Positions 29,449 through 31,037 of a DNA stretch of 45,315 nucleotides are shown here, in pieces; the stretch's first letter is position 1, and each line of letters starts with the position of its first letter. The notes below the pieces were generated by a model, which did no database searches, was not told where the DNA came from, and worked only from the letters and a program-made list of their open reading frames with translations. The stretch is from a virus: positions 1 to 45,315 of the IMG/VR virus record IMGVR_UViG_3300047472_000458; one strand, 5' to 3'. Both the position numbers and the translations under genes were made by a program.

Positions 29449-29690
29449 GGGGGAGTCTCCTTCTGCTGTTGAATTGCTACGTACTGCCGGCGCGCGGCGA
29501 GGTTCTTGATGTCGACGCGGTAACTGATGCATGGACGTGAGTTCCACGCCACGTACTGGAACTTGGCTTGGTCGCTGTCGCTGGCGAGGCAGCGGCCCAT
29601 GCCAACGTCGGCGTACTCGGGCGCAGCCAGGCGCACGCTGAACTCGTCGCAGAGCGCACACATTTCGCTGGGATCGGGACCGCAGATCAT
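29445..29690 (-). CDS. small cysteine-containing protein (81 aa)
   Basis: An 81-residue hypothetical with CGPDPSEMCALC at the N-terminus and further Cys at GRCLAS and RPCISYR, perhaps zinc-binding. ATG 29690 follows GAAGGATG and overlaps the stop of ninG; its own stop overlaps the TTG of the Q-like gene. The coupling suggests it belongs to the nin-like region, whose small genes are mostly of unknown function. Confidence 0.7.
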   Translation of the reverse strand: MICGPDPSEMCALCDEFSVRLAAPEYADVGMGRCLASDSDQAKFQYVAWNSRPCISYRVDIKNLAARRQYVAIQQQKETPP

Positions 29691-30286
29691 GCCGCATCCT
29701 TCAGAGCACGCAGCTGCGCGCGGAAATCGGCCTTCATCGCCAGCAGGCCGGGGATTGTCCAGGCGCCGCCGACCTGGTCGCATTCGAGTTCTTCGACGGC
29801 AGCCAGGCCGATTCGAACAATCAGGCCGATTCGGTAGTCGGCCGCGTTGCCGGCGCGGTAGCGATTGCACTTCTTGCACTGGCCGTGCGCGTTACGGAAG
29901 TCGAAGCGCAGATGCGGCGCGCTGCCCCGGCTTCGGTAGTGTCCGCAGTCATAACCGCCGCCTGGCGTGTCGTCCAGCGTCGCCAGCACGGTCGGGCAGC
30001 TGATGCACGTTTCGTCGCGGTCCCGGAAGCGCACGAGGGCGTTGAATGCCTCCTGCGTCTCGGCGATATGCTGGCCGCGCGTCTTCATCGCTTGCTTGCG
30101 CTCGCGCGTCTGCTTCGCGTCCAGGCGCTTACGCTCGGCCACGGCGTGCACGGCAGCGCAGTCGGCGCCGCATACCTTGTGGCTGATGTTCCGCGGCTGG
30201 AAGCGGTTGGCGCAGCCCTTGACGGCGCACTTGCGGACGCGCGAGCCTTGGATCGGCTTGCGGCGGGTGAGGGGAGTTCTCAGCAC
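29687..30286 (-). CDS. ninG: NinG/Rap-like recombination protein
   Basis: A 199-residue NinG (Rap) family protein, a structure-specific nuclease helping phage recombination. Zinc-binding parts are visible: KCAVKGCANRFQ with HKVCGADC, and CISC, then YDCGHYRSRGSAPHLRFD and HGQCKKCNRYRAGN, the diagnostic NinG block. I prefer the GTG at 30286 (GGAG 8 nt upstream); an ATG at 30301 would add five residues but has no ribosome site. It begins inside the end of the methyltransferase gene. Confidence 0.92.
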   Translation of the reverse strand: MLRTPLTRRKPIQGSRVRKCAVKGCANRFQPRNISHKVCGADCAAVHAVAERKRLDAKQTRERKQAMKTRGQHIAETQEAFNALVRFRDRDETCISCPTVLATLDDTPGGGYDCGHYRSRGSAPHLRFDFRNAHGQCKKCNRYRAGNAADYRIGLIVRIGLAAVEELECDQVGGAWTIPGLLAMKADFRAQLRALKDAA

Positions 30287-31017
30287 GTTAGGATCTCCCA
30301 TGCTGCTGCTGCCACTCGTGGAACTTGGCCATTTCCAATGGCTCGGTGCCGGTCCATCGCAGCGGCCACCCCATCAACCACTCGCTGAACTCCGGGTTGT
30401 GACGCCCGCCAGGCAGCAATCCCTTCAGGGTTAAGAATTCGGGGAGACGCACACCGCGCGAAGACTTGGCGGCTCGCTTCTTGGCGGTCTGCGGTGTCAC
30501 GCTGCCCTTCTCGTCGGAAGCGGTTGGCGTCGGCCACAATCCAGAGACGTTCCCGCATGTGATCCAGCCCGGCGTCGTATGCGCTGAACACTCCCCATCG
30601 TGCATCGAACCCCAGCTCGGCCAAGTTTCCAAGAACGGTTCCAAGCCCCCGAGAAGTGAGCATTGGGCTGTTCTCCACAAACACGAATCTTGGTCGTACT
30701 TGGCGAATGATCCGCGCCATTTCCGTCCAGAGCCCCGAGCGTTCTCCGTTGATTCCGGCCCCGCCTCCGACCACACTGATGTCCTGACAGGGAAATCCCC
30801 CAGATACGACGTCAACAAGTCCTCGCCATGGTGTGCCATCAAAAGTTTCGACGTCAGACCAGACTGGGAAAGGTCGAAGACATCCATCGTTTTGCCTCTG
30901 CGCCAGAACGGCCGCCGCGTCAGCATCACGTTCAACTGCGCACACGGTGCGCCATCCAAGAAGGTGCCCGCCGAGTATTCCTCCACCAGCGCCTGCGAAA
31001 AGAGCCAACTCATTCAT
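30280..31017 (-). CDS. DNA (cytosine-5) methyltransferase
   Basis: A 245-residue C5-methyltransferase. Motif I is LALFAGAGGGILGG, binding S-adenosylmethionine. Motif IV is GGFPCQDIS at about 74-82 with catalytic Cys77. Motif VI is VENSP at about 114-118, motif VIII is RERLWIVA, and motif X is AIGNGQVP at 226-233. It is short, with little room for a target-recognition domain. Phages use such enzymes to evade host restriction. The same DNA is open almost end to end in another frame (30288-31013) whose product also resembles a phage protein family. AAGGATGAG precedes the start. Confidence 0.92.
   Translation of the reverse strand: MNELALFAGAGGGILGGHLLGWRTVCAVERDADAAAVLAQRQNDGCLRPFPVWSDVETFDGTPWRGLVDVVSGGFPCQDISVVGGGAGINGERSGLWTEMARIIRQVRPRFVFVENSPMLTSRGLGTVLGNLAELGFDARWGVFSAYDAGLDHMRERLWIVADANRFRREGQRDTADRQEASRQVFARCASPRILNPEGIAAWRASQPGVQRVVDGVAAAMDRHRAIGNGQVPRVAAAAWEILTC
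30288..31013 (-). CDS. second full-length frame within the methyltransferase gene (WPTP/WLMGWP-type phage protein)
   Basis: A 241-codon frame starts 4 nt after the methyltransferase ATG (ATGAATG) and stops 8 nt before its end. The product has features I know from widespread phage proteins annotated separately: the start MSWLFSQALVEEYSAGTFLD, GLWPTPTASD at 158-167 and EWLMGWPLRWTGTEPLEMAK at 211-230. Tryptophan-rich motifs fall exactly on methyltransferase motifs. Either this is real dual coding, or that family is partly an annotation shadow of methyltransferase genes. An antisense frame is open here too, so openness alone proves little. Confidence 0.45.
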   Translation of the reverse strand: MSWLFSQALVEEYSAGTFLDGAPCAQLNVMLTRRPFWRRGKTMDVFDLSQSGLTSKLLMAHHGEDLLTSYLGDFPVRTSVWSEAGPESTENARGSGRKWRGSFAKYDQDSCLWRTAQCSLLGGLEPFLETWPSWGSMHDGECSAHTTPGWITCGNVSGLWPTPTASDEKGSVTPQTAKKRAAKSSRGVRLPEFLTLKGLLPGGRHNPEFSEWLMGWPLRWTGTEPLEMAKFHEWQQQHGRS

Positions 31018-31037
31018 CTCATCCTTCTTCGTTCTAG

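Follow-up and report, generated by a model that had tools for sequence, protein, structure and literature searches.

Two reading frames under selection in a phage cytosine methyltransferase gene: a probable two-protein enzyme encoded by one stretch of DNA

The question raised by this locus is whether a cytosine methyltransferase gene in a viral DNA of 45,315 nt (the window; IMG/VR record IMGVR_UViG_3300047472_000458) encodes a second protein in another frame of the same strand, and what that protein may do. Genes that encode two long proteins on the same strand are considered great rarities among prokaryotes and dsDNA phages, and the candidates mostly come from few genomes. The frame 0 ORF, a C5-cytosine DNA methyltransferase of 245 aa (alpha), occupies 30280-31017 on the minus strand, and the +1 ORF (P2; 241 aa) is nested in it at 30288-31013, minus strand. 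The first-pass annotation had described two same-strand frames starting 4 nt apart (ATGAATG) and open for about 240 codons, and ATG-initiated ORFs of 245 and 241 codons bear this out. The dual start lies at 31011-31017 (minus strand; alpha ATG 31015-31017, P2 ATG 31011-31013), with a putative Shine-Dalgarno-like AAGGA at 31022-31026 (minus strand), 4 nt 5' of the alpha ATG and 8 nt 5' of the P2 ATG. Across homologues the aligned Shine-Dalgarno sequence lay a median of 3 nt from the alpha start and 7 nt from the P2 start, distances at which a single site could serve the two. The neighbouring genes serve phage replication and recombination: upstream is that of an IstB/DnaC-like ATPase, and downstream is ninG (29687-30301, minus strand; NinG PF05766, 1.1e-41). 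Since ninG starts within the two ORFs (ATG at 30301), the 14 nt at 30288-30301 (minus strand) are read in three frames, as the end of P2, the end of alpha and the start of ninG.

Stop codons in the +1 frame were counted over the first 85% of the gene and compared with synonymous codon shuffles. The set used for dual-frame rates and a 200-sequence stop test both required a full P2 match, and unconditioned sets, fetched by similarity to the alpha protein only, were therefore tested separately. The +1 frame contained 1 stop vs 304 expected in 75 viral loci, and 7 vs 252 expected in 76 genome loci. The P2 frame was open over 85% of the gene in 74 of 75 viral loci (0.9 expected) and in 72 of 76 genomic loci (3.7 expected). 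Stops in the +2 frame were slightly above the shuffle expectation, and +1 stops in flanking genes were close to it (observed/expected about 0.93-1.03).

Substitutions were classed by their effect in both frames, following the logic of OLGenie (PMC7531306), in 50 independent pairs with 80-97% DNA identity. In the P2 frame, dNN/dNS was 0.36 [0.31-0.40] and dSN/dSS was 0.28 [0.25-0.32], and changes synonymous in alpha that altered P2 were about 4-fold rarer than those that left P2 unaltered. In the +2 frame NN/NS was 1.45 and SN/SS 0.99, and in the +1 frame of flanking genes they were 0.81 and 0.77, respectively. Purifying selection in the P2 frame thus goes beyond the constraint of the reference frame, which is what an OLGenie-type analysis looks for in a functional overlapping gene. 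Codon-position rates were 0.139/0.056/0.176 in alpha vs 0.091/0.052/0.308 in the flanks. Selection on P2 extended to its N-terminal half (SN/SS 0.21 over motifs I-III of alpha). Omega of alpha was 0.13-0.18 over motifs I-VIII and 0.57 after motif VIII, where omega of P2 was 0.27; there, first positions of alpha codons changed at a rate of 0.255 and third positions at 0.149. From these regional values and the faster first positions it follows that +1 acts like the principal coding frame in the last ~100 codons.

Codon choice carried the same signal at single sites. The P2 start was ATG in 202 of 203 unique homologues; the alpha start in the 203 was ATG in 136, GTG in 46 and TTG in 19. The second alpha codon was xAT (AAT, TAT or CAT) in 202, and other Asn codons were AAC in 58% of cases. 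The valine of the alpha VEN sequence, directly 5' of motif VI (ENS, 30667-30675, minus strand), was encoded by GTG in 152 of 153 homologues, although GTG accounts for 36% of the valines in these genes; it is fixed as GTG because this codon makes Trp113 of P2. Similarly, the glycine of the alpha DG sequence was GGG in 150 of 156, vs 18% of glycines overall; at both sites the alpha residue itself is invariant. Both frames are under purifying selection at the amino-acid level, and evolution demonstrates dual coding of this gene. The earlier proposal of near-full-length dual coding was upheld in this way by the dual-frame ratios; the neutral second frame or frequent stops that were named as its possible refutation were not what the selection ratios and the 1 and 7 stops returned.

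Alpha has the features of a C5-methyltransferase catalytic polypeptide. PF00145 matched it at 5e-29 over residues 4-169 only. Its translation contains motif I (FAGAGGG, 30979-30999, minus strand; invariant or near-invariant alignment columns), motif IV (PCQ, 30784-30792, minus strand; catalytic Cys77, with P76 and C77 invariant and Q78 nearly so), motif VI (ENx), motif VIII (RERLW, 30541-30555, minus strand; R155, R157 and W159 invariant) and motif X in frame 0 (RAIGNGQVP, 30319-30345, minus strand), at which the alpha tail aligned best to ordinary methyltransferases. An AF2 model of alpha (pLDDT 80.6) has a Rossmann-type, M.HhaI-like catalytic domain and an uncertain tail, and Foldseek aligned it to M.HhaI with a TM of 0.60 over 169 columns. 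A motif-IX-like string was absent from frame 0 in all 57 alpha homologues, and the median distance from motif VIII to motif X was 89 aa in alpha vs 154.5 in one-chain enzymes. Frame 0 had been credited with all C5-methyltransferase motifs; it has motifs I-VIII and X, and the motif-IX-like sequence is in the +1 frame. Judged by its sequence, alpha without motif IX is not a complete one-chain methyltransferase, which would carry that motif in frame.

P2 had no relative in Pfam, NCBIfam or the PDB by sequence searches, and PADLOC gave no match for it. PHROGs holds separate families for the two frames of this same DNA, phrog_363 for alpha (1e-60) and phrog_1008, phrog_26627, phrog_35493 and phrog_27243 for P2; phrog_1008 and phrog_26627 matched 58 of 58 aligned P2 relatives. 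The P2 families are labelled 'DNA methyltransferase' (phrog_1008) or unknown. AF2 gave P2 alone a pLDDT of 52, as might be seen for a subunit that needs its partner in order to fold, but also with a shallow alignment.

P2 has a conserved C-terminus, LNPxWVEWLMGWPxGWTDL. A motif-IX-like string occurred in 47 of 58 P2 homologues vs none of 57 alpha homologues, and in this locus it is the segment NPEFSEWLMGWPLRWT (30351-30398, minus strand), at the place expected for motif IX, just 5' of motif X. Upstream of it is the LWPTP element (30525-30539, minus strand), often repeated in longer homologues; [LFW]PTP was found in 44 of 58 P2 homologues, 0 of 57 alpha homologues and 1 of 388 flanking genes, and two one-chain enzymes have LPTPxxxD elements in frame. 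When viral contigs were scanned for FVEWMMG(L/F)P, 33 matches shared the methyltransferase frame and had motif X after them in that frame, as in one-chain enzymes; 55 were in the +1 frame of a methyltransferase without motif X there and 3 in +1 with motif X, and for the remaining matches the catalytic domain was unplaced by the motif search or lay in another frame. Against unselected ordinary bacterial methyltransferases, the P2 tail aligned with an E of 0.24, no better than shuffled columns, with its best place at RLTPRECARLMGFP, motif IX. A stronger match came from one-chain enzymes fetched by a motif-IX DNA pattern, a partly circular choice, and with 1 of 20 shuffled controls scoring unexplainedly high it was not relied on. 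The lack of motif IX in alpha, the ending of P2, the frame split of FVEWMMG(L/F)P and the best alignment place together make the C-terminal half of P2 look like a target-recognition region plus motif IX. The suggestion of two recognisable families in the two frames therefore stands for PF00145 in frame 0 and for P2 with PHROG families of its own; its second member is probably not an unrelated protein and would instead be the missing motif IX and recognition part. Some P2 homologues have repeated (W/L)PTPxxxD units (e.g., L261 and L427-L429), which could reflect growth of the recognition region by repeated LWPTPTAxD-type units and changes in target specificity.

Because alpha is without motif IX and the C-terminus of P2 resembles motif IX and a recognition region, P2 is probably a beta subunit, and we consider it likely that this stretch of DNA encodes a two-protein cytosine methyltransferase in which alpha is catalytic. 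What we infer is that both proteins are translated, that they assemble and that beta is needed, as well as what the enzyme does for the phage and in which order the evolutionary steps came. Frame 0 would be translated into alpha, with motifs I-VIII and X, and the +1 frame, entered at the ATG 4 nt downstream and probably from the same ribosome-binding site, into P2. The C-terminal half of P2 would supply what alpha does not have, a target-recognition region and motif IX, and the two proteins, co-produced from one message, would assemble into the active enzyme. The assembled enzyme would methylate phage DNA, presumably for evasion of host restriction or for phage gene regulation. The ancestor was probably a one-chain methyltransferase. 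Two compensating frame changes, one 5' of the recognition region and the other between motifs IX and X, would have moved its recognition region and motif IX into +1, and the +1 ORF would afterwards have extended upstream over the catalytic domain.

Three other explanations were weighed against the two-protein enzyme. P2 may be real and have another role (e.g., as a regulator, or in anti-restriction or antidefence) over a complete methyltransferase, its likeness to motif IX being coincidental or fossil. That P2 is clearly selected agrees with this, the link between alpha and P2 is drawn from sequence, the N-terminal half of P2 has no methyltransferase counterpart, the profile match to unselected methyltransferases was not significant and PADLOC was blank for P2. 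However, the motif that 57 of 57 alpha homologues are without is present in P2 just before motif X, one-chain enzymes have the same motif in frame with the catalytic motifs, and P2 was apart from an alpha-type sequence in no examined locus; a different role is accordingly thought unlikely. It is also conceivable that a programmed +1 frameshift joins motifs I-VIII of alpha to the C-terminus of P2, leaving the P2 start unused. The C-terminal half of P2 is its most constrained part, phages of the Lacticaseibacillus type are open in +1 only from near motif IV onward, and in two loci (L451 and L460) motifs I-VIII lie in frame 0 but motifs IX-X in +1. Yet a shifted product would be without motif X, the P2 start ATG is kept in all loci except one of 203, and the selected N-terminal half (motifs I-III) would be needless for such a product, so that frameshifting is very improbable here.

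The reading to which the least weight is given makes P2 a non-functional shadow ORF, held open by the amino-acid or codon bias of the methyltransferase. Shadow ORFs are generally common in high-GC genes, and P2 nearly always lies over an intact methyltransferase. Shuffles that preserve the protein and its codon usage nevertheless predict hundreds of stops where 1 and 7 were found, the P2-altering changes silent in alpha are depleted about 4-fold, and neither the near-fixed GTG at the VEN valine nor the GGG at the glycine would be expected. This null was rejected by the synonymous shuffles, the dual-frame rates and the codon choices, and the chance that it holds is negligible.

A two-protein enzyme of this kind has relatives among known systems. 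M.EcoHK31I and M.EaeI are two-polypeptide YGGCCR C5-methyltransferases. According to Lee, Kam and Shaw in 1995, the beta polypeptide of EcoHK31I is reportedly encoded inside alpha in another frame, with both polypeptides needed in vitro; a second polypeptide nested in alpha in another frame is thus a likeness to the present locus. The M.EcoHK31I alpha has motifs I-VIII and X plus a predicted target-recognition domain, and only motif IX is in the small polypeptide (PMC3404938). By that definition, alpha here is also a large subunit with I-VIII and X and without IX, and P2 may match the small polypeptide in carrying motif IX, judged by frame distribution and position, the profile match not being significant. 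Unlike in M.EcoHK31I, the +1 ORF here spans nearly the whole alpha gene and starts 4 nt after alpha; the predicted recognition domain is in the EcoHK31I alpha, whereas here both frames are open in that region and P2 is the more constrained (0.27 vs 0.57); and P2 and alpha form a phage and prophage family not known as part of a restriction-modification system. In split C5-methyltransferases of the M.AquI type, which also make one enzyme from two polypeptides, motif IX and some of the variable region are on the second polypeptide (PMC3404938). The second AquI subunit has both IX and X, whereas here alpha retains X and the second ORF lies within its gene. The ShiLan-type HNH endonuclease hidden in mycobacteriophage methylases, a mobile insertion encoding a homing endonuclease (PMC11855218), is likewise an out-of-frame protein within a phage methylase gene; P2, in contrast, is no insertion, overlaps the catalytic motifs and is a fixed feature of the family. 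In Paenibacillus phage Rani, gp51 ('g50 Internal gene'), annotated as a hypothetical protein, is a +1 ORF in a C5-methyltransferase with the same LNPDWVECLMGFPIGWTD ending; it differs in that its start lies about 200 nt inside the methyltransferase gene.

A full-length P2 occurred in 203 unique loci, with hosts among Acinetobacter, Pseudomonas, enterobacteria, Betaproteobacteria, Verrucomicrobia and others. In phages and prophages from many groups of bacteria, dual coding here covers about 240-300 codons, and selection was measured for each of the two frames. The locus is a clean system for studying two proteins that share one sequence and the choice that ribosomes make between two starts separated by 4 nt. 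Should P2 be a subunit, many of the 'orphan methyltransferases' of phages would be two-component enzymes that have been expressed or annotated without an essential part.

Related overlaps of differing extent occurred in other phage groups. In methyltransferases of Lacticaseibacillus-type phages, the +1 frame had no stops between motif IV and +150 codons, a stretch in which NN/NS was 0.21 and SN/SS 0.19. The nested +1 ORF of these loci (L288-L312 and L282) begins at an internal ATG located 16 codons 5' of PCQ (21 of 22 sequences), runs to about +150 codons and often ends LNPAWVEWLMGYPIGWT. In the Streptococcus/Lactococcus type, there were 0 +1 stops from motif IV to +90 codons vs about 317 expected, and NN/NS and SN/SS were 0.35 and 0.26 inside vs about 0.65-1.0 outside. 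The shorter nested +1 gene of this type (L317-L396), from about codon -25 to +115 relative to PCQ and ending SLSDILEENVPEKYFLS..., is sharply bounded by stop depletion and dual-frame rates. One gene type in this group (L287) has a canonical motif IX in frame 0 despite its nested +1 gene. Paenibacillus phage Rani, Escherichia phage ESSI2_ev129 and Erwinia phage 59 have +1 ORFs with WPTP-type repeats and a similar ending. Most sampled chromosomal methyltransferases with a canonical motif IX had +1 stops at about the expected number, and phage-type genes of the same genomes had none. A Bacteroides-phage methyltransferase used as query returned three distant loci only.

With somewhat less than even confidence, we propose that nested +1 subunits are old and common in phage C5-methyltransferases and that paired compensating frame changes left each protein half ancient and half new, alpha combining an old catalytic domain with an overprinted recognition region and P2 an old recognition region and motif IX with an overprinted N-terminus, with variants of differing extent in the Lacticaseibacillus-, Streptococcus/Lactococcus- and Paenibacillus-type phages. 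If this is true, these would be two-protein methyltransferases whose parts cannot be lost or separated independently. In the two viral contigs already mentioned (L451 and L460), motifs I-VIII are in frame 0, which then has stops, and the recognition region and motifs IX-X are in +1; they are possible AquI-like overlapping split genes, as evolutionary intermediates or as frameshift genes.

Database records, among those inspected, usually listed one frame only. P2 is listed as a hypothetical protein in Pseudomonas phage phPA-G and Vibrio phage 1.291.O, other inspected records list the methyltransferase, and Rani alone lists both, the P2-like one as an 'internal gene'. As most of the inspected records give just one of the two, public annotation is frequently only half right.

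Broken copies were seen in both frames. Stops in P2 with an open methyltransferase occurred in L257, L262 and L273. Conversely, P2 is intact in L202 and L231, whose methyltransferase frame is interrupted by one stop, and L047 was flagged likewise; single-stop copies may be sequencing errors. The first-pass annotation would have been contradicted by a P2 that always shadowed an intact methyltransferase, and these three genes, together with one from Paraburkholderia adhaesiva (L261), depart from that pattern. The latter has several frame 0 stops after motif VIII and no P2 start at +4, and its +1 frame, open for 505 codons, carries several WPTP-type repeats and both motif IX and motif X.
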